Of a stretch of DNA of 64,000 bases, positions 28,395-38,519 are shown piece by piece (within the stretch, counting starts at the first letter, position 1; every line of letters begins with the position of its first letter). Source of the DNA: Cellulomonas sp. SG140. Its GTDB lineage: Bacteria; Actinomycetota; Actinomycetes; Actinomycetales; Cellulomonadaceae. The translations under genes were made by a program, and so were the position numbers. The stretch covers positions 62,001-126,000 of the forward strand of contig NZ_JANZLA010000001.1 of the NCBI RefSeq assembly GCF_025770785.1, read 5' to 3'. Under the pieces are notes generated by a model, which was not told the origin of the DNA, searched no databases, and was given only the letters and a program-made list of their open reading frames with translations.

Positions 28395-28958
28395 GCGATG
28401 TGCTCCTGGGTACCCAGCAGCCCCGTGCCCACACGTCACGGTGCTGGTCGGGCGGTCGGTCGTCCTTCGGCACGGTGGCCGGGACGGAAGTCGGCGGTCG
28501 GGTCGCGGCCTCGCACGTCGGCGCCATCGCCTGCTGGCCCGGCTGGGCCCCGGTCTGGGGCGTCCTGCCTGGCCGAGCGGCGGCTGGCACGCGGGACGCG
28601 CCGGACTGCGAGCTCGGTGGACGGGAGGGCGGTGTGGGCGCCCGATGTCCGCCCCAAGTATCGCACAGCAGCCCTCCGGAGACGGGAGCGACGAGGCTGG
28701 TCCGCCCGACGAGGACACCCCGGGCCGCGTACGGGGCGTCCTCCCGTGGTCCGCCGCCGCCCGCACAGGAGGGTGCCGCGACACGCCGACGCCACGCCGT
28801 CAGGAAGACGACACCGCGTCGGCATACGTGACCTAGGTCCTAGGACCTCGGCCCTAGGAGCCCTAGCGTTCCGAACGGGCCCCGACCCCGCCGCGCGATC
28901 AGGTGCGACGGGCGCAGGGCCTGCCCCGCCGCCCGATCCTGGACCCCCGGAGACCTGC
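28395..28958. other. 564-bp intergenic region between rne and cydA
   Basis: No gene with coding character was found here. It must hold the divergent promoters of rne and cydA. A 12-bp palindrome CTGGGTACCCAG (28406-28417) sits in the rne leader 12 bp before its start. A cluster of CTAG palindromes (28830-28866) lies about 100 bp before cydA. No confident -10/-35 pair could be assigned. Confidence 0.7.
28830..28866. promoter_or_regulatory. Nested CTAG palindromes upstream of cydA
   Basis: Four CTAG tetramers occur within 34 bp (28833, 28840, 28854, 28863). Two overlapping perfect palindromes are present: GACCTAGGTC (28830-28839) and AGGTCCTAGGACCT (28835-28848). CTAG is rare in such genomes, so this density is unlikely by chance and fits a regulator binding site for the cyd operon. 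The protein is not known. The site does not match the Rex or published DosR consensus. Confidence 0.5.
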
Positions 28959-30440
28959 GTGGACGCGCTGACCCTGGCCCGCTGGCAGTTCGGTATCACC
29001 ACCGTCTACCACTTCATCTTCGTACCGCTGACGATCGGTCTCTCGACCCTCGTCGCGATCATGCAGACGCTGTGGGTCCGCTCGGGCAAGACGGAGTGGC
29101 TACGCCTGACCAAGTACTTCGGCAAGCTGCTGCTGATCAACTTCGCGATCGGCGTGGCCACCGGCATCGTCCAGGAGTTCCAGTTCGGCATGAACTGGAG
29201 CGAGTACTCCCGGTTCGTCGGCGACATCTTCGGCGCACCGCTCGCGATGGAGGCCCTCGCGGCCTTCTTCATCGAGTCCACGTTCCTGGGCCTGTGGATC
29301 TTCGGCTGGGACAAGCTGCCGAAGCGGGTCCACCTCGCGACCATCTGGCTCGTGGCCGGGTCCACCACGCTGTCGGCGTTCTTCATCCTCTCGGCCAACT
29401 CCTGGATGCAGCACCCGGTCGGGGCGACCTTCAACCCCGCGACGGGCCGTGCCGAGATGCACGACCTCGCCGCCGTGGTGACCAACCCGACGGTGCTGGC
29501 GGCCTTCCCGCACACGATCGCGGCAGCCTTCCTGACCGCCGGCACCTTCGTCGCGGCGGTGTGCACGCTGTGGATGGTCCGGCTGGTGCGCCGGGGCGAC
29601 GCCGACCGGGCGCGCAGCGTCTACCGGCCGGGCCTGCGCCTCGGCCTGGTGGCCATCGTGATCTCGGGCATCGTCGTCGCCGGATCCGGGCACTGGCAGG
29701 CGCAGCTGATGTTCCGCCAGCAGCCGATGAAGATGGCCGCGGCAGAGGGCTTGGTCAACACCGAGACCCGCGTCCCGCTGTCCCTGCTGACGGTCGGCAG
29801 CCTGAACAACGACCCGGCCAGCGTGCAGCACCTGGTGCAGATCCCCTGCCTGACGTCGATCCTCGCCGACAACACCTGCAACTCCACGCTGAAGGGCGTC
29901 GCGGACCTGCAGAAGCAGTACGAGCAGAAGTACGGCACCGGCGTGGACTACATCCCCAACCTCGCGGTGACCTACTGGTCGTTCCGGCTGATGATGGCGT
30001 TCGCCGCATTCGCGGCGCTGCTGGCCCTGATGACGCTGTGGCTGACGCGCAAGGGCCGGGTCAGCGACAACGTCTGGTTGCGTCCCGTCGCCATGGCGGC
30101 ACTGCCGACGATCTTCCTGGCGTCGAGCGCCGGCTGGATCTTCACCGAGATGGGCCGCCAGCCCTGGGTCGTCGCGCCGAACCCCAACCCCGAGGGTGCG
30201 GACATGGTGTGGCAGCTGACGATGCGGGGCGTCTCGACGCAGGTGAGCGCCGGCTCCGTGGTGACCTCACTGGTGCTGTTCACCCTGCTGTACGGAGTGC
30301 TCGCCGTCGCGTGGTACCGGCTGATGCGCCGGTACGTCGCGGGCGGCGTCGACGACGCCGGCCTCGGCGCCGAGACCCCCGCGGACGGTGGCGAGGGAAC
30401 GACCACCGACGTCGACCGCCCGTTGTCCTTCGCGTACTGA
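28959..30440 (+). CDS. cydA: Cytochrome bd quinol oxidase subunit I
   Basis: This 493-residue membrane protein holds hemes b558, b595 and d and oxidises quinol while reducing oxygen to water. GTG 28959 gives VDALTLARWQFGITTVYHF, where the His in YHF is the conserved N-terminal heme ligand. EFQFGMNWSEYSRFVGDIFG and TEMGRQPWVV are hallmark CydA segments. The periplasmic Q-loop is of the short type. It is the first gene of cydABDC, 21 bp before cydB, and is preceded by the CTAG palindromes. Confidence 0.97.
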   Translation: MDALTLARWQFGITTVYHFIFVPLTIGLSTLVAIMQTLWVRSGKTEWLRLTKYFGKLLLINFAIGVATGIVQEFQFGMNWSEYSRFVGDIFGAPLAMEALAAFFIESTFLGLWIFGWDKLPKRVHLATIWLVAGSTTLSAFFILSANSWMQHPVGATFNPATGRAEMHDLAAVVTNPTVLAAFPHTIAAAFLTAGTFVAAVCTLWMVRLVRRGDADRARSVYRPGLRLGLVAIVISGIVVAGSGHWQAQLMFRQQPMKMAAAEGLVNTETRVPLSLLTVGSLNNDPASVQHLVQIPCLTSILADNTCNSTLKGVADLQKQYEQKYGTGVDYIPNLAVTYWSFRLMMAFAAFAALLALMTLWLTRKGRVSDNVWLRPVAMAALPTIFLASSAGWIFTEMGRQPWVVAPNPNPEGADMVWQLTMRGVSTQVSAGSVVTSLVLFTLLYGVLAVAWYRLMRRYVAGGVDDAGLGAETPADGGEGTTTDVDRPLSFAY

Positions 30441-30461
30441 GACCGCCGGAGCCTTCAGACC

Positions 30462-31568
30462 ATGAGCCACGAGACCCTGCAGATCCTTTGGTTCGTCCTC
30501 ATCGCCGTCCTCTGGACCGGGTACCTGGTCCTCGAGGGGTTCGACTTCGGCGTCGGGATGCTCCTGCCCTTCCTGCCGCGCGACGAGCGTGAGCGCCGCG
30601 TGATGATCAACACCGTCGGCCCTGTGTGGGACGGCAACGAGGTGTGGCTGCTCACTGCGGGCGGCGCGACGTTCGCCGCCTTCCCGGAGTGGTACGCCAC
30701 CCTGTTCTCCGGCGCGTACCTGCCCCTGCTGCTGATCCTGCTCGCCCTGATCGCGCGCGTCGTGTCCTTCGAGTGGCGCGGCAAGATCAGCACCCCGAGG
30801 TGGCAGCGCAGCTTCTACTGGGGCCTGGTGCTCGGCTCGTGGGTCCCGGCCGTGCTGTGGGGCGTCGCGTTCGGCAACCTCGTCGCGGGCCTGAAGATCT
30901 CGCCCGTCACCAGCACGGTGAGCAACCCGGGCGCTGCCCAGGACATCACCCGGACCACGCTGCAGTACACCGGCGGGTTCTTCGACCTGCTGGGTGCCGG
31001 GCACGGCTTCGCCCTGCTGACCGGCGTGCTGACCGCCACCGTCTTCCTGGCCCACGGCGCGATCTTCCTGTCGCTGAAGACCGCCGGAGACCTCCAGTCG
31101 CGAGCCGCCGTGCTGGCGAAGCGGCTGTCCCTCGCCGCGCTCGGCGTCGGGGCCGTGTGGGCGATCTGGCTGCAGCTGGCCTTCTCGCGCAACGCCTGGA
31201 CGTGGGCGGCGCTCGTGCTCGCGGCCCTCGCCCTCGCGGCATCTGCCTGGTTCGCGTGGGTCGGGACCCACGGGCGAGCGTTCGCCGCCTCGGCGGTGGC
31301 GATCGTGGCGGCCGTGGTGCTGATCTTCGGCGCGATGTTCCCCGACGTGATGCCGTCCAGCATCGACCCGGCGTACTCGCTGACCATCCACAACGCCTCG
31401 TCCAGCGCCTACACGCTCACCATGATGTCGTGGGTGGCGCTGATCCTGACGCCGCTGGTGCTGGCGTACCAGGCGTGGACGTACTGGGTGTTCCGCAAGC
31501 GCATCGGCGTGCACCACATCCCCGAGCAGGTGGACGTGACCTTCGAGAACGCCCCGTCGCTACGGTGA
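30462..31568 (+). CDS. cydB: Cytochrome bd quinol oxidase subunit II
   Basis: The 368-residue integral membrane partner of CydA has about eight helices. It begins LQILWFVLIAVLWTGYLVLEGFDFGVGMLLPFL and has the signature GPVWDGNEVWLLTAGGATFAAFP, quoted in part as VWDGNEVWLL. GGAG lies 9 nt before the ATG. The cydD start is 7 bp downstream, so the genes are cotranscribed. Confidence 0.96.
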   Translation: MSHETLQILWFVLIAVLWTGYLVLEGFDFGVGMLLPFLPRDERERRVMINTVGPVWDGNEVWLLTAGGATFAAFPEWYATLFSGAYLPLLLILLALIARVVSFEWRGKISTPRWQRSFYWGLVLGSWVPAVLWGVAFGNLVAGLKISPVTSTVSNPGAAQDITRTTLQYTGGFFDLLGAGHGFALLTGVLTATVFLAHGAIFLSLKTAGDLQSRAAVLAKRLSLAALGVGAVWAIWLQLAFSRNAWTWAALVLAALALAASAWFAWVGTHGRAFAASAVAIVAAVVLIFGAMFPDVMPSSIDPAYSLTIHNASSSAYTLTMMSWVALILTPLVLAYQAWTYWVFRKRIGVHHIPEQVDVTFENAPSLR

Positions 31569-31575
31569 CGGCCGC

Positions 31576-33237
31576 GTGAGGCCGCTCGACCCGCGGCTGC
31601 TGCGCTACGCCCGCTCCGCGCGGGGCTACGTCGCGCTGACCGTCGGCCTCGGTCTCGCGATGGGCGCCCTGGTGGTCGCGCAGGCGCTGCTGCTGGCCCA
31701 CGCGCTCGGGGGTGCGGTGCAGCACGGCGCCACGCTCGCATCGCTCTCGGGGACCGTCCTGGCCCTGGTCGGCGTCGTCGTCGGTCGCGGCCTGGTCACC
31801 ACGGTGCAGGAACGGTTCGCGCACCGTGCGGCCACACGCGCGGTGGCCGAGCTGCGCAGCGGCGTGGTGGCCCGGGCAGCGGACCTCGGGCCGCGATGGC
31901 TCGCCTCGGGGCAGGGGCCCGCGGTGGTGACCCTCTCGACGCGCGGTCTGGACGGCCTCGAGCCGTACTTCGTCCGGTACCTGCCCCAGCTGGTGCTCGC
32001 GGCGACGCTGACGCCGGGCACGCTGCTGGTGGTGCTCGGCCTGGACTGGGTGTCGGCGGCGATCCTGGTCGGCACGCTCCCGCTGATCCCGCTGTTCATG
32101 GTGCTGATCGGTCAGCTGACGCAGGGGCGCTCCGCCCGCGGCCTCGAGGCGATGCAGCGGCTCGGCGCCCAGGTGCTCGACCTGCTCGCGGGGTTGCCCA
32201 CGCTGCGCGCGTTCGGTCGGCAGCGCGGGCCTGCCGCACGCGTACGGGCACTCGGCGACGCGCACCGGCGGTCGACCATGGCGACGTTGCAGATCGCGTT
32301 CCTGTCCGGGATGGTGCTCGAGCTGCTGACCACCCTGTCCGTCGCGCTCGTCGCGGTGGCGATCGGGCTACGCCTGGTGAGCGGCCGGCTGGACCTGGTG
32401 ACGGGCCTGGCGGTGCTGATGCTCGCCCCGGAGGTGTTCTGGCCGCTGCGGCAGGTCGGGGCACAGTTCCACGCGGCCGCCGACGGGGTGGCCGCGGCCG
32501 AGGCGGCGTTCGCAGTCCTCGACACCCCGGTGCCCGCTCGCGGCACCCAGGCCTGCCCGGACCTGTCCCGCTCGACGCTGCGGCTCTCCGACGTGGGCGT
32601 GCGGTCCGCCGGGGGTCTGACACCGGCCCGCCTCGACCTGGAGCTGGTCCCGGGCACCGTGGTGGCCCTCGTCGGGCCCTCCGGCGTGGGCAAGACGAGC
32701 ACCGTCGAGGTCCTGCTGGGCCTGCTGGCGCCCGACCACGGCACCGCGCGCGTCCAGACGCCCGACGGCGGCTGGCTGGACCTGTCCGACGTCGACCGGC
32801 GCAGCTACTGGGACCAGGTGAGCTGGCTGCCGCAACGGCCGGTCCTCGAACCCGGCACCGTGCGGCAGCTCGTCGGCGGTCACGACGACGACGCCCGGTC
32901 GCGCGCTGCGGCTCTCACGGGACTCGATGCCGTCGTGGCAGCCCTTCCCCACGGATGGGACCAACCGCTCGGGACAGGGGGCTCCGGCCTGTCCGTCGGT
33001 CAGCGGCAGCGCGTCGCGCTGACCGCCGCGCTGCTCGCGGACGCGCCGCTGGTGGTGCTCGACGAGCCGACGGCGCACCTCGACGCGGCCGGCGAGCAGG
33101 TGGTCCTCGCAACCGTCGCCGCGCTGCGCGCCGCGGGCCGCACGGTGCTGCTCGTCGCCCACCGGCCCTCGCTGGTGGCCGGCGCCGACCACGTCGTCAC
33201 GGTGCACGCCGAACGCGCCGCCGAGGTGGTGGCGTGA
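31576..33237 (+). CDS. cydD: ABC exporter subunit CydD (bd oxidase assembly)
   Basis: This 553-residue half-transporter has an N-terminal six-helix membrane domain (about 1-300) and an ATPase with Walker A GPSGVGKTS, signature LSVGQRQRVAL and Walker B LVVLDEPTAHLD. CydDC exports thiols or heme-related compounds needed for cytochrome bd maturation. The start is GTG 31576. The end overlaps cydC by 4 bp (GTGA). Confidence 0.94.
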   Translation: MRPLDPRLLRYARSARGYVALTVGLGLAMGALVVAQALLLAHALGGAVQHGATLASLSGTVLALVGVVVGRGLVTTVQERFAHRAATRAVAELRSGVVARAADLGPRWLASGQGPAVVTLSTRGLDGLEPYFVRYLPQLVLAATLTPGTLLVVLGLDWVSAAILVGTLPLIPLFMVLIGQLTQGRSARGLEAMQRLGAQVLDLLAGLPTLRAFGRQRGPAARVRALGDAHRRSTMATLQIAFLSGMVLELLTTLSVALVAVAIGLRLVSGRLDLVTGLAVLMLAPEVFWPLRQVGAQFHAAADGVAAAEAAFAVLDTPVPARGTQACPDLSRSTLRLSDVGVRSAGGLTPARLDLELVPGTVVALVGPSGVGKTSTVEVLLGLLAPDHGTARVQTPDGGWLDLSDVDRRSYWDQVSWLPQRPVLEPGTVRQLVGGHDDDARSRAAALTGLDAVVAALPHGWDQPLGTGGSGLSVGQRQRVALTAALLADAPLVVLDEPTAHLDAAGEQVVLATVAALRAAGRTVLLVAHRPSLVAGADHVVTVHAERAAEVVA

Positions 33238-35072
33238 GCACGGACCAGCCGCTCTCGGCGCGCCGTGCACCCGTTGACGGCGTCGGGGCCGACCGCCCGC
33301 CCCGCGGCACCCTGCGTCGCGCCCTCCGGCTGCTGGAGGTGCCGCGCGGCCGCGCGCTGCTCGCGGTGCTGGTCGGCACGCTGGCCCTGGGCTGCGCCGT
33401 CGCGCTGGCGGCGGTCTCGGCCTGGCTGATCGCGCGAGCCTCTCAGATGCCTCCGGTACTGCTGCTGTCCGTCGCCACGGTCGCCGTGCGGACCTTCGGC
33501 ATCGGCCGCGGGGTGCTGCGCTACTGCGACCGGCTGGTGTCGCACGACGTGGCGCTGCGCGGCATGACGACGCTGCGCACGACGCTGTACGACCGCCTGG
33601 CCGAGGGACGCGCCGACGCCACCCTCGGCCTGCGTCGTGGCGACCTGCTCGCCCGGGTCGGTGCCGACGTCGACGCCGTCGGCGACGTGGTGGTGCGCGG
33701 CCTGCTGCCCGCCGGCGTGGCACTGACGCTCGGTGTCGGCACCGTCACCGCCATGGCCTTCTTCTGGCCGCCGGCCGCCCTGGCGCTGGCCGTGTGCCTG
33801 CTGCTGGCCGGCGTGGTCGCCCCGGCGCTGACGGTCCGGGGCGCACGCGCCACCGAGCGGCGGGCGGCGCACGCCAGGGCCGACTCGTCCGCCGCGGCGC
33901 TGTCGGTCCTGGACGACGCCGGTCCGCTGCTGGTGTCCGGCCGCCTCGAGGCCCGCCTGGGCGCGGTGCGCGCGGCGGACGCCCGCGTGGCCACGGCCGT
34001 CGACGCCGGTGCGCGACCGACGGCCCTGGCGGCCGGGATCGGCACCGCCGCCACGGTCCTGGCAGCGGTGGCGGCGCTGGTGACCGGCGTGCCCGCGCTG
34101 CGCGCCGGGCTGCTCGCGCCCGTGGAGCTGGCGGTGATCGTGCTGACACCGCTCGCGGCGTTCGAGGCGACTGCGCTGCTGCCGGCAGCGGCCGTGCAGG
34201 TGCAGCGGTCCCGGGTCGCAGCAGCGCGCATCCTCGCGCTGCTGGACGCCGCAGAGGCCCCGGTCGTGGACGCAGGCGACGCCGTGCCGGCGGGGACGAG
34301 CGGCGGCCCGCACGTGCTGCGCGCGCGCGACCTGGCCGTCGGCTGGCCCTCGCGGTCGCCTGCGCTGACCGGCGTCGACCTCGACCTCCGGCCGGGCCGC
34401 ACCGTCGCCGTCGTCGGACCGAGCGGCATCGGCAAGACGACCCTGCTGCTGACGCTCGCCGGTCTCCTCGATGCCCGCCACGGTTCCGTCGTGCTCGACG
34501 GGACGCCGCTGCGGATGCTCGGCGACGCGGACCGGGCGGCCGGCGTCGTCGTCACCACGGAGGACGCGCACGTGTTCGGCACCACCGTCCTGGAGAACCT
34601 CCGCGTCGCCCGTGGCGACGTGACACCGGACCAGGCCCGGGCGGCGTTGCAGCGTGTCGGTCTGGGCACGTGGCTCGCCGGCCTTCCGGACGGGCTCGAC
34701 ACGCTGCTCGGCCCCGATGCGCGCACCGTCTCCGGCGGCGAGCGTCGTCGGCTGCTCCTCGCCCGTGCGCTGCTCGCCCCGGCACCCCTGCTGCTCGTCG
34801 ACGAGCCCGCCGAGCACCTCGACCCCGCGACGGCGGACGCCCTGGTCCACGAGCTGCTCGACCGGCCGACGGGCTGGGACGGCAGCCCGCGCGGGGTGGT
34901 CGTCGTCACCCACCGCCTGGCGCCCCTCGCCGCCGCCGACGAGGTGCTCTGGCTCGCCGACGGCACCGTGGCGGCGCGTGGCACCCACCAGCAGCTCCTC
35001 GACGGGACCCCGGGCTACCGTGAGGCGGTGGACCGCGAGCGGGTCGCGGTCGAGCCACAGGAGCGTGCATGA
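33234..35072 (+). CDS. cydC: ABC exporter subunit CydC (bd oxidase assembly)
   Basis: This 612-residue second half-transporter of CydDC starts at GTG 33234 (VSTDQPLSARRAP). Its membrane domain begins LLAVLVGTLALGCAVALAAVSAWL and has FGIGRGVLRYCDRLVSHD, a CydC hallmark. The ATPase has GPSGIGKTT, VSGGERRRLLLARAL and LLLVDEPAEHLD. The 4-bp overlaps with cydD before it and the kinase gene after it imply tight coupling. Confidence 0.94.
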   Translation: MSTDQPLSARRAPVDGVGADRPPRGTLRRALRLLEVPRGRALLAVLVGTLALGCAVALAAVSAWLIARASQMPPVLLLSVATVAVRTFGIGRGVLRYCDRLVSHDVALRGMTTLRTTLYDRLAEGRADATLGLRRGDLLARVGADVDAVGDVVVRGLLPAGVALTLGVGTVTAMAFFWPPAALALAVCLLLAGVVAPALTVRGARATERRAAHARADSSAAALSVLDDAGPLLVSGRLEARLGAVRAADARVATAVDAGARPTALAAGIGTAATVLAAVAALVTGVPALRAGLLAPVELAVIVLTPLAAFEATALLPAAAVQVQRSRVAAARILALLDAAEAPVVDAGDAVPAGTSGGPHVLRARDLAVGWPSRSPALTGVDLDLRPGRTVAVVGPSGIGKTTLLLTLAGLLDARHGSVVLDGTPLRMLGDADRAAGVVVTTEDAHVFGTTVLENLRVARGDVTPDQARAALQRVGLGTWLAGLPDGLDTLLGPDARTVSGGERRRLLLARALLAPAPLLLVDEPAEHLDPATADALVHELLDRPTGWDGSPRGVVVVTHRLAPLAAADEVLWLADGTVAARGTHQQLLDGTPGYREAVDRERVAVEPQERA

Positions 35073-36820
35073 CCGCAGTCCCTGCGCCCGGTCGCCAGGT
35101 GGGCGCCCCGTTCGAGCACGGTGTGCTCACGGAGGCCGGCACGCATCCCGCGACCCTCACCGGCGACGGCCTGACCGACCTGATGCAGGCGATCCTCTCG
35201 GTGGCCGGCGAGCTGGAGCTGTCGGCCGTCCTCGAGCGGTTCGTCCAGGTCAGCGCCGAGCTGACCGGTGCGCGCTTCGGTGCGATCAACGTGCTGGACA
35301 ACCGCGGGGCCTCGACCACGTTCGTCTACACCGGCGTCCCCACGGCGATCGCCCGGATGCTCGCGCGGCCGCCGCACGCCCAAGGCGTCCTCGGCCAGAT
35401 CCCCGACGAGGGGGCCCTCCGGCTGACCGACCTCACCAAGCACCCGGCGTTCCGCGGCTGGCCGGCCAACCACCCGCCGATGGGCTCGTTCCTCGGCGCC
35501 TCCGTGCGGGTGCGCGACCGCGTGTTCGGCCAGCTCTACCTGTCCGAGAAGCTGGACGGCAGTGCCTTCACGCAGCAGGACGAGGACACCGTGATCGCCC
35601 TCGCCGCCGCCGCCGGTGTCGCCGTCTCCAACGCCCAGCTGTACGCCGAGTCCGGTCGGCGGGAGCACTGGCTGCGCGCCGGTCAGGAGATCACGACGAT
35701 GCTGCTCGAGGGCATCGACGAGGAGGAGGCCCTCGAGCACATCACCCGCACCGCGCGCGACGTGGCCGGTGCCGACACCGCGGCGCTCGCGCTGCCGGGC
35801 CTCGCCGGCGAGCTGCTGATCGAGCTGGCCGACGGGCACGACGCCGACAAGCTGCTCGGCCAGGTCATGCCGGAGGGCGGCCGTGCGTGGACGGTGATGA
35901 AGGAGGGCAAGGGGCTGATGACACCGTCCCTGTCCGCCTCCCGCACCGTGACGCTCGCGGCGATGCGCGCCTTCGGGCCGGCGATGTTCGCCCCGTTGCA
36001 GACGTCCGGACGTGGCGTCGGCGTGCTGATCCTGCTGCGCCGCGTGGCCTCCCTACCGTTCGACGAGGGCGACCTGGTGACCGCCGAGTCGTTCGCGTCC
36101 CAGGCCGCGCTGGCGTACGTGCTGGCGGAGGCCCGTCACGCCCAGGACGTCGCGGCGCTGCTCGACGAGCGCGAGCGGATCGCCCGGGACCTGCACGACC
36201 TGGCGATCCAGCAGCTGTTCGCCACCGGCATGCAGCTGGAGACGGTGCGCCGGCGCTCCGCCCGCGGTGTCGACGCGCACGAGCTGACCGCCATCGTCGA
36301 GGAGGCCCTCGACAACGTCGACGAGTCGGTGCGGCAGATCCGTCACATCGTGCACGAGCTGCGCGACCCGGACGCCGCCACCGGTCTGGTGGAGCGCCTG
36401 CGCCGCGAGGCGTCGCTCGCCCGGACCGGCCTCGGCTTCGCCCCGTCCCTGGTCATCTCCCTCGAGGGCGCCATGCTGGGCGCGGACGACGTCGAGGCCG
36501 AGGACCTGCTGGACGAGCGGCTCGACGCGCAGCTGACCGACGACGTGGTCGCCGTCGTGCGTGAGGGGCTGGCCAACGCCGCCCGGCACGCGCACGCCTC
36601 GTCGGTGACCGTGTCGGTGTCCGTGCGCGGCAGCGGACCGCAGGGCACGGTGCTGGTGGAGGTGCAGGACGACGGCATCGGCATGCCGACGCGTCGCGAC
36701 CGCACCTCCGGCACCGGCAACCTCGCGGCCCGTGCCCGTCAGCACGGCGGGACGTTCTCCCTCAGCACGCCGCCGGACGGGCGCGGGACGCTGCTGACGT
36801 GGCAGGCGCCGCTCCCCTGA
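35069..36820 (+). CDS. DevS/DosT-type GAF sensor histidine kinase
   Basis: The 583-residue soluble kinase overlaps cydC by 4 bp. GAF-A (about 30-180) has TKHPAFRGWPANHPPMGSF and FGQLYLSEK. His135 and Tyr157 match DevS His149 (proximal heme ligand) and Tyr171 (distal pocket) in sequence and spacing. GAF-B (about 205-345) follows. The HisKA_3 helix RIARDLHDLAIQQLFATG carries phospho-His376. The ATPase domain has EGLANAARHAHAS, DDGIGMP and GTGNLAARARQHGG. It probably senses O2, NO or CO, or redox, through heme and phosphorylates the DevR-like regulator encoded just downstream on the other strand. Confidence 0.9.
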   Translation: MTAVPAPGRQVGAPFEHGVLTEAGTHPATLTGDGLTDLMQAILSVAGELELSAVLERFVQVSAELTGARFGAINVLDNRGASTTFVYTGVPTAIARMLARPPHAQGVLGQIPDEGALRLTDLTKHPAFRGWPANHPPMGSFLGASVRVRDRVFGQLYLSEKLDGSAFTQQDEDTVIALAAAAGVAVSNAQLYAESGRREHWLRAGQEITTMLLEGIDEEEALEHITRTARDVAGADTAALALPGLAGELLIELADGHDADKLLGQVMPEGGRAWTVMKEGKGLMTPSLSASRTVTLAAMRAFGPAMFAPLQTSGRGVGVLILLRRVASLPFDEGDLVTAESFASQAALAYVLAEARHAQDVAALLDERERIARDLHDLAIQQLFATGMQLETVRRRSARGVDAHELTAIVEEALDNVDESVRQIRHIVHELRDPDAATGLVERLRREASLARTGLGFAPSLVISLEGAMLGADDVEAEDLLDERLDAQLTDDVVAVVREGLANAARHAHASSVTVSVSVRGSGPQGTVLVEVQDDGIGMPTRRDRTSGTGNLAARARQHGGTFSLSTPPDGRGTLLTWQAPLP

Positions 36821-36877
36821 GCCGCGCCGGAGACGCCGGTGGCCGACCCGCCCGGTCGGGTGGCCGGCGCCCGGCCG

Positions 36878-37555
36878 TCAGTGACCGGGCTCGGCCCGCC
36901 AGCCGGAGTGCTTGCGCGCCGCCACCCAGGCGGCCACCTGCGTGCGCCGCTGCAGGCCCATCTTGGCGAGCAGCGACGTGATGTGGTTCTTGATCGTCTT
37001 CTCGGCGACACCGAGCCGGTCGGCGATCTCGCGGTTGGACAGACCGTCGCCGATCAGGTCCAGCACCCGCAGCTCGCTCGGCGTGAGGTTCTCGGTCGGG
37101 TCCTCGTGGCCGGCCCGCCGGCGGGTGACCGTCCGCTCGTCCAGCAGCGTCCTCCCGGCCGCGACGGCGCGGATCACGTCGGTGATCTCGGCGCCTCGCA
37201 CGCTCTTCAGCAGGTAGGCCGCTGCGCCGGCGTCGAGCGCCTGCGCCACCGCGTCGTCGTCGTCGAACGACGTCAGCACGATGGCCTTGCTGTCCGGCAG
37301 CGTCTCGCGCACCGCGCGCATCAGGTCGATGCCCGTCCCGTCCGGCAGCTGCAGGTCCACGAGCAGCACCTGCGGGCGCACCAGCGCGGCCCGGCGGGCG
37401 CCGTCGGCGACGGAGCCGGCCTCGGCGACGACGGTCATTCCGTCCGTGCGCTCGACGACCTCGGCTATGCCGCGGCGGACGACCTCGTGGTCGTCGACGA
37501 TCATGACGCTGATGGGGCGTTGGCGGTCGATGCCCGCAGTCCCGGGGGAACTCAC
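36878..37555 (-). CDS. NarL/DevR-type response regulator
   Basis: The product has about 225 residues from GTG 37555; longer starts lack homology. The receiver domain has SVMIVDDHEVVRRGI, phospho-acceptor Asp67 in LLVDLQLPDG and a Lys in YLLKSVRGAE. The C-terminal LuxR helix-turn-helix reads LTPSELRVLDLIGDGLSNRE, then KTIKNHITSLLAKMGLQ. The layout is like DosR/DevR. It is convergent with the GAF kinase gene (57 bp between the stops) and divergent from the dehydrogenase gene at 37575, so it does not share the kinase transcript. Confidence 0.92.
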   Translation of the reverse strand: MSSPGTAGIDRQRPISVMIVDDHEVVRRGIAEVVERTDGMTVVAEAGSVADGARRAALVRPQVLLVDLQLPDGTGIDLMRAVRETLPDSKAIVLTSFDDDDAVAQALDAGAAAYLLKSVRGAEITDVIRAVAAGRTLLDERTVTRRRAGHEDPTENLTPSELRVLDLIGDGLSNREIADRLGVAEKTIKNHITSLLAKMGLQRRTQVAAWVAARKHSGWRAEPGH

Positions 37556-37574
37556 CGTGGCATCGTAGCGACCT

Positions 37575-38519
37575 GTGACGATCGTCCTGCTCCCGGACAC
37601 ACTCGACCGCGAACCCGTCCTTCCGGCAGACGTCCGGTCCGTCCGCTACGCCGCCGACCGACCGCTGCCCCCCGAGGCCGACGAGGCGGAGGCGCTCGTG
37701 GTCTGGGGCAGCTCCCGTGCCTGGCTGACCGAGGCCGCCGGGCGCCTGCCCAAGGTGCGCTGGGTGCAGTCGTTGGCCGCCGGACCGGACGACGTGCTGG
37801 CCGCCGGGTTCGGTCCCGAGGTGGTGATCACGTCCGGCCGCGGCCTGCACGACCTGCCGGTCGCGGAGCACACCCTCGCCCTGACGCTGGCGCTAGTCCG
37901 CCGCGTGCCGGACCTGGTGCGCGCGCAGCAGCAGCACCGCTGGGCGGCCGAGCTCGGTGGGCTGCAGCCGCTGCACCCCGAGGGCTCGGTGCGCACGCTC
38001 CTGGACGCCCACGTGACGGTCTGGGGCTTCGGGTCGATCGCCGCCCGCCTCGCACCCGCCCTCGCGGCGCTCGGGGCGCACGTCACCGGGATCGCGACCG
38101 CGGCCGGCGTCCGGCACGGGTTCCCGGTGGTGACGCGCGCCGCGCTGAGCGAGGTGCTGCCCGACACGGATGTGCTCATCGGGCTGCTGCCCGCGACGGA
38201 CGCGACCCGGCACGCCATCGGCACCGGCGCGCTGGCCCTCCTGCCGCCGCGGGCGCTGCTGGTCAACGTCGGCCGTGGAGCGACGCTCGACGAGGAGGCG
38301 CTCGTCACCGCGCTCCGCGCAGGCCGTCTGACCGGCGCCGCGCTGGACGTGTTCGAGAGCGAGCCGCTGCCGTCCGACTCACCCCTCTGGGACGAGCCGT
38401 CGGTGCTGATCAGCCCGCACGCCGCGGGTGGGCGGCCCGTCGGCGCCGCCGAGCTGGTCGCGGACAACCTGGTGCGGTTCGTGTCCGGCAGCCCGTTGCG
38501 CAACGTGGTGCAGCGGTAG
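37575..38519 (+). CDS. D-2-hydroxyacid dehydrogenase family protein
   Basis: The 314-residue product has a Rossmann domain with VWGFGSIAARLAPALAALG (GxGxxA-type), LLVNVGRGATLDEEALVTAL with the catalytic Arg, FESEPLPSDSPLW with the catalytic Glu and LISPHAAGG with the catalytic His. The full triad supports NAD(P)H-dependent oxidoreductase activity. The substrate is unknown; the family includes phosphoglycerate and glyoxylate/hydroxypyruvate reductases. GTG 37575 lies 20 bp from the divergent response-regulator start, so the promoters overlap the coding ends. Confidence 0.88.
   Translation: MTIVLLPDTLDREPVLPADVRSVRYAADRPLPPEADEAEALVVWGSSRAWLTEAAGRLPKVRWVQSLAAGPDDVLAAGFGPEVVITSGRGLHDLPVAEHTLALTLALVRRVPDLVRAQQQHRWAAELGGLQPLHPEGSVRTLLDAHVTVWGFGSIAARLAPALAALGAHVTGIATAAGVRHGFPVVTRAALSEVLPDTDVLIGLLPATDATRHAIGTGALALLPPRALLVNVGRGATLDEEALVTALRAGRLTGAALDVFESEPLPSDSPLWDEPSVLISPHAAGGRPVGAAELVADNLVRFVSGSPLRNVVQR

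Follow-up and report, generated by a model that had tools for sequence, protein, structure and literature searches.

Why should a histidine kinase of the mycobacterial DevS (DosS)/DosT type be encoded within the operon of a terminal oxidase, and does it control that oxidase? The question is raised by a 64,000-nucleotide stretch of Cellulomonas sp. SG140 (the window; G000:C1:62001-126000, where G000 is the 3.81 Mb assembly of this organism; genomes, contigs and loci carry G, C and L numbers throughout), in which the genes for cytochrome bd oxidase run into the gene for such a kinase and a DevR-like response regulator gene lies convergent to it. Based on the gene order, a conserved promoter box and the pattern in which box and gene pair are lost, the two genes probably form a DevS/DevR-type two-component system that controls the bd oxidase, with the kinase gene embedded in the cyd operon. 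What is new here is a palindrome resembling the DevR box that is conserved upstream of cydA in genomes with the kinase linked to the cyd genes. The original prediction for this locus had proposed a heme-type kinase that tunes the bd oxidase; compared with it, the case for control of cyd by the linked pair is now stronger, while that for heme as a universal signal is weaker.

A DevS/DosT-type kinase in the cytochrome bd operon

Four contiguous genes on the forward strand encode the two oxidase subunits and the thiol exporter: cydA (28959..30440; subunit I, assigned by Pfam and NCBIfam with Cyt_bd_oxida_I at 1e-153), cydB (30462..31568; subunit II, TIGR00203 at 1.7e-95), cydD (31576..33237; TIGR02857 at 2e-164) and cydC (33234..35072; TIGR02868 at 5.9e-170). 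The cydD and cydC genes overlap by 4 bp, as do cydC and the kinase gene (35069..36820, forward strand; 583 aa), the two meeting in an ATGA formed by the kinase start codon (35069-35071) and the cydC stop codon (35070-35072), so that the predicted run of cydABDC into a GAF-domain kinase was borne out. The kinase has the Pfam domain order GAF-GAF-HisKA_3-HATPase_c (GAF-A and GAF-B hereafter), the layout of DevS and DosT, and its predicted phospho-acceptor in HisKA_3, His376 (codon 36194..36196, forward strand), is kept in 126/126 kinases aligned.

The convergent gene (36878..37600, reverse strand, with an alternative GTG start at 37555) encodes a NarL-family regulator with a receiver and a LuxR-type helix-turn-helix domain. 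DevR is its best solved relative (3c3w, 1.2e-50), and it keeps K179, K182 and N183, reported as DNA-contact residues of DosR (PMC5999986; papers given by PMC number are cited from excerpts). By alignment, its phospho-acceptor is Asp82 (codon 37355..37357, reverse strand) when counted from the GTG at 37600, the same residue that had been called Asp67 from the shorter start, and the DevR-like identity first proposed for it holds. It is the single close DevR-like regulator of the SG140 genome, where the next best match reaches only 33% identity. No NCBIfam model passed its cut-off for the kinase, nor did a regulator model among the best 25 of 89 families.

Conservation of the linkage in relatives

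Among 58 related genomes, 36 of them in the genus, a close kinase homologue follows cydC in 32 of the 36 genus members. A wider sample of 149 genomes of the order included 118 with a cydC match and 82 with a kinase match at E <= 1e-50; in 49 of the 149, spread over eight families, the kinase gene lies directly after cydC as judged from coordinates. The pairing of kinase and cydABDC, on whose retention in relatives the original prediction had been staked, is thus kept, and confinement of the linkage to one species is rejected by its occurrence across genus and order. In 19/30 genus loci, the kinase has a possible start codon 4 bp inside cydC. Named records, of which 80 loci were kept from 518 (some of them repeating genomes of the sample, e.g., L235 and G100), show the cyd genes followed by the kinase gene and the convergent regulator gene in Cellulomonas, Demequina, Arcanobacterium, Actinomyces dentalis and metagenome-assembled genomes of Bifidobacteriaceae, often with mutM or rnc beyond them. 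In all, 78 linked genomes were tallied, with G089 omitted from such counts as its contig begins at cydC.

Three genus members, G005, G022 and G024, have a complete cydABDC and lack both kinase and regulator, cydC leading directly to the gene that comes next in the window; in the fragmented assembly of G013 no such kinase was seen. Two loci have unusual arrangements. In L036 (G037), a second pair of cydDC-like transporter genes neighbours the cyd-linked kinase in opposite orientation, with no DevR-like gene seen in the 14-kb stretch, and at L032:10523-12562 (G004), the match to cydB is split in two with a gap of about 1 kb, possibly through an insertion or an assembly fault.

A conserved palindrome upstream of cydA

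Upstream of cydA, at 28828..28841, lies a palindrome resembling the DevR box, GTGACCTAGGTCCT, followed after 22 bp by a predicted -10 element, TAGCGT (28864..28869, forward strand). The genus consensus of this box, GGGACCTTnGTCCY (GGGACCTTgGTCCt), is close to the DosR consensus TTSGGGACTWWAGTCCCSAA (PMC2275270), and the window copy is among the weaker genus forms. Under a rule of at least 12/14 matches to GGGACYWWRGTCCC at -170 to -60, set after the genus data had been inspected, the box was present in 58/72 linked genomes with readable DNA upstream of cydA (6/78 were unreadable) vs 21/5600 Markov controls. A TAnnnT hexamer stands 22 bp after the box in 26/31 box-bearing genus genomes, and beyond the genus, 33 box-bearing genomes yielded 33 such hexamers at offsets of 22-25. 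By the estimated start site, the box would be centred near -42, a place typical of activators. A DevR-type palindrome is present at the predicted target promoters, to which the regulator would bind. As a separate observation, six loci from one Cellulomonas subclade (L056, L060, L062, L063, L072 and L074) have a CRP-like site, GTGA-N6-TCAC, that lies further upstream than the cydA box.

Box and gene pair tend to be absent from the same lineages. Within the genus, 30 of the 31 linked genomes with DNA upstream of cydA have the box vs none of the three pair-less genomes, and G013 has it too. Failure of the search as a source of these absences is rejected, the best 14-mers scoring 10/14 in 350 bp of the three pair-less genomes. 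On a quick cydA tree (this and the kinase tree below were made by quick methods without bootstrap), the box was lost at least twice, in G005 with Cellulomonas sp. URHD0024 and in G018 with G022 and G024, and the pair three times by count (twice if G022 is sister to G024), with every loss of the pair falling within a clade that has no box. URHD0024 has kept the pair, the kinase having lost its heme-ligand His (see below). All five box-less genomes carry a second DevR-like regulator, 55-57% identical to DosR in the four compared, so that decay of the cyd-linked pair seems to occur in some lineages with another DevSR. Root930, also with a second regulator of this kind, keeps the box.

The predicted heme pocket and its variation

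The GAF-A domain of the kinase (residues 49-186; 35213..35626, forward strand, from Pfam and structure-sequence alignment) finds its best matches among solved structures in the GAF-A domains of DosT (2vzw, 1.8e-35) and DosS (2w3d, 1.7e-32). In these alignments His135 (codon 35471..35473, forward strand) falls on the proximal heme His (DosS His149, DosT His147), making it the predicted heme ligand, and Tyr157 (codon 35537..35539, forward strand), 22 residues away, on the distal Tyr (DosS Tyr171, DosT Tyr169), in agreement with the motifs and spacing originally noted and with the match to DevS proposed from them. A structure model of the kinase built from 23 sequences (mean predicted local distance difference test, pLDDT, 83.3; predicted template modelling score, pTM, 0.53) gave a GAF-A with a template modelling score of 0.81-0.91 by target length against the DosS and DosT GAF-A crystals. 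In the Foldseek ranking by E-value, two bacteriophytochromes and the PDE5 GAF pair stand just above DosS because they cover a greater share of the chain. That the His135/Tyr157 motif arose by chance is rejected, as the entire GAF-A aligns with DosS and DosT and the model superposes.

At the channel position, the likeness ends. The residue there has a role in DosS (Glu87) and DosT (Gly85) (PMC4082495), and Asn74 (codon 35288..35290, forward strand) at the aligned position is neither. Asn occupies it in 48/62 linked kinases, and Gly in 58/64 unlinked kinases. As DosS and DosT themselves differ here, the position separates subtypes and does not exclude the kinase from the family.

Across the linked genomes, the ligand His is kept in 63/78 (including 32/32 linked genus members of the 58 relatives), replaced by another residue in 12/78 and lost with the whole of GAF-A in 3/78, vs 64/64 with His among unlinked kinases. 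In this tally the genus states were entered by hand from the genus alignment, and L040, scored as His by misalignment in the separate residue count of linked and unlinked kinases, was counted as lacking GAF-A; in that residue count L232 (truncated at the end of its contig) and L245 (about 1.9 kb from its cydC match) stood as unlinked and are probably linked. L235 has Gly or Ala at the His position depending on the alignment, and never His. The three kinases without GAF-A, L324 (G128), L329 (G131) and L040 (G045), begin at or near GAF-B right after cydC, with start codons at -4 to +44 bp relative to the stop codon of cydC. The part of the original prediction that assigned a DosS/DosT-type GAF-A with ligand His holds for most members, while heme sensing as a property of the whole family does not, given the linked kinases without His or GAF-A. 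The Tyr adds little: that of 'LYL' is kept in most linked kinases without His, so it is not diagnostic of heme, contrary to its proposed use as a mark of heme sensors.

Such kinases would fit a system in which the pair controls cyd with heme as a droppable extra layer, GAF-B or a quinone, redox or partner-protein signal being the main input to the kinase. Operon position is kept in kinases with a replaced His or missing GAF-A, and the three genomes without GAF-A all have the cydA box, both in favour of this reading. Against it stand the retention of His in the large majority of linked genomes and the distribution of the box, which is present in 53/60 linked genomes with His vs 2/9 with a substituted His (Fisher p 9e-5, or 0.008 when the genus is excluded, both without correction for ancestry). 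We consider a chiefly non-heme input unlikely.

A quick tree of 55 kinases placed 31 of the 34 rows scored as linked in one group of 36, the exceptions being L037, which branches at the base of the opposite side, and L276 and L299 from Streptomyces. A second Cellulomonas DevS-like kinase (L045, L046, L236 and L237) falls inside the linked group and therefore probably arose by duplication of the cyd-linked kinase. Twelve genus genomes are listed with this second kinase (51-55% identical), seven of them with an exact box close upstream. In SG140 it occurs at G000:C14:109663-111297 and G000:C18:52567-54201 (53% identical), with a one-mismatch box upstream; since these places and several box sites match, contig C18 is probably an assembly duplicate of part of C14. 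No DevR-like regulator was found in the 13-kb stretch read around the second kinase at L045.

Wider distribution of the box

The SG140 genome has 104 matches to the box pattern with one mismatch vs 26 for the reversed pattern, matches that are not independent, as each palindrome is counted once per strand and sequence is repeated between contigs C14 and C18. Over the 36 genus genomes, the exact pattern GGGACCTTNGTCCY gives 144 vs 6, with none in G022. The 94 sites fetched and examined (24 from SG140, 30 taken one per genome and 40 picked from the list, several of them twice) include 20 loci in 19 genus genomes with the box between ctaC, for subunit II of the aa3 oxidase, and a divergent class-V aminotransferase gene (in SG140, L106:1501-1514, equal to G000:C11:390619-390632). 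In eight genus genomes a box lies upstream of nrdD, for the anaerobic ribonucleotide reductase (in SG140, L103:1501-1514, equal to G000:C1:698470-698483). Other recurring neighbours, named by Pfam, are ccsB (4), a thiolase (4), a chemotaxis receptor (3) and a DUF305 protein (2), and many of the remaining sites have neighbours seen once each. At one G008 site (L131 and L158), the box lies upstream of a PAS protein resembling an aerotaxis receptor.

Judged by these neighbours, the box set is probably a respiratory regulon. As the same box stands at ctaC, nrdD, ccsB and the second kinase, control by the system probably extends beyond the bd oxidase, and a respiratory programme is its likely target. 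The proposed tuning of the bd oxidase is accordingly supported by a conserved DevR-like box at the cydA promoter, while as a description of the kinase's task it was probably too narrow, with boxes at other respiratory genes.

Proposed control of the bd oxidase and its alternatives

Several observations weigh against control of the bd oxidase by the linked pair. By the rule, 14/72 linked genomes have no cydA box, and G018 has kept the pair and lacks the box. The regulator gene is not beside the kinase everywhere: of the 30 genus loci first examined, 24 have it within the 1.5-kb flank and two of the other six (L226 and L231) 2-3 kb further on, with the contig ending in one, and no DevR-like regulator was seen in the examined stretches of G037 and G047. 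At the regulator's own promoter, no box of at least 12/14 occurs in any of 32 loci, some of which repeat a genome, and autoregulation through such a box is rejected. The ctaC box is present in the pair-less G005 and G024, and another DevR can therefore probably use it. The linked kinases without the ligand His or GAF-A count on the same side, as does the cydA box retained in the genomes without GAF-A. Independent events are few, perhaps two losses of the box and two or three of the pair, and the counts are uncorrected for ancestry.

With these reservations, a DevS/DevR-type system controlling the bd oxidase from within its operon is still the reading that we favour. Heme in GAF-A, with His135 as ligand and Tyr157 on the distal side, would read low O2 or redox state; the kinase would autophosphorylate on His376 and pass the phosphate to the convergent DevR-like regulator, which would bind the box just before the -10 element and, as its conservation and position suggest, activate cydABDC and the kinase gene. 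Oxidase and sensor would come from one message, synthesis of the oxidase also yielding the sensor, an arrangement that would form a feedback loop. A bolder version, possible but doubtful at present, is that the cyd-linked pair is a distinct DevSR branch for respiration and not dormancy, tuning both oxidases and anaerobic DNA synthesis through one box, and that in lineages without His or GAF-A it has become a gas-blind sensor that reads the respiratory chain in some other way.

The regulator might instead repress cyd, or delay it until heme or the aa3 branch has been served. The direction of regulation is not readable from sequence, and in C. glutamicum HrrA activates oxidase genes, yet delays cyd by repressing sigC (PMC7337898). 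The position of the box, 22-25 bp before TAnnnT and centred near an estimated -42, resembles that of an activator site, and we regard repression as improbable. Least of all do we expect that another NarL-family regulator reads the cydA box and that the embedded pair, linked by mere co-inheritance, has some other job: the surviving ctaC box of G005 and G024, the classic DevR-like regulators with the same AEKTVKN stretch in G005, G018, G022 and G024, and the cydA box in five unlinked genomes (G036, G039, G051, G052 and G057) would suit it, but the four genomes with the classic regulator have no cydA box, no further close DevR-like regulator was found in SG140, within the genus only clades without the box have lost the pair (the fragmented G013 aside), and a DevS-like kinase is encoded elsewhere in all five of the unlinked genomes with a box, though G042 has an unlinked one without a cydA box.

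Comparison with known systems

What is known of DosS/DosT signalling comes mostly from mycobacteria. Operon structure, the promoter box and the pattern of losses here tie a related DevSR branch in other Actinobacteria to the bd oxidase. With this branch come a predicted regulon, a heme-channel residue that varies naturally and kinases naturally without His or GAF-A, so that the signal of DosS-type kinases (O2, redox state or another input) can be addressed in a non-pathogen; a review calls the sensing by the mycobacterial system contradictory (PMC4082495). With the DosS(DevS)/DosT-DosR(DevR) system of Mycobacterium, the Cellulomonas pair shares the GAF-GAF-HisKA_3 kinase with aligned heme His and distal Tyr, the DNA-contact residues of the regulator and a palindromic box of similar type; the combination of two kinases and a single close regulator, as in SG140, is likewise common to both. 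It differs in the placement of the kinase in the cyd operon with the regulator convergent, in the Asn at the Glu87/Gly85 position and in targets that look respiratory. In mycobacteria, the regulator's own promoter carries a box, and the Cellulomonas-type loci differ in this (0/32).

Rex, Crp and ArcBA/Fnr act through other sensors and sites than the DevSR-like pair and are not known to be encoded in the oxidase operon. HrrSA of Corynebacterium glutamicum, which is heme-regulated through another kind of kinase, has its genes outside the cyd operon, unlike the Cellulomonas kinase. Rex, Crp and ArcBA/Fnr have the same cyd target in Streptomyces, M. smegmatis and E. coli, and DevR is reported to be dispensable for hypoxic cydA induction in M. 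smegmatis (PMC7739888); HrrSA is also a heme-linked two-component system that controls both the aa3 and the bd oxidase (PMC7337898). Searches of an open-access library brought up no report of a DevSR system embedded in a cyd operon.

In Streptomyces coelicolor, SCO3948 presumably adjoins the cyd genes. It is the kinase most like OsdK (PMC5069765), which with OsdR (SCO0203/SCO0204) forms another non-mycobacterial relative of DevSR with a palindromic GGGCC-type box. The OsdR box is AGGGCCGATCGGCCCT, unlike the cydA box, and the excerpted text of the OsdR paper makes no mention of 'cyd' (PMC5069765). Yinghuangia soli (L245) and two Streptomyces loci (L276 and L299) have a DevS-like kinase near or after the cyd genes that belongs to a separate group of the kinase tree, and in L245 and L276 a DevR-like gene adjoins it.

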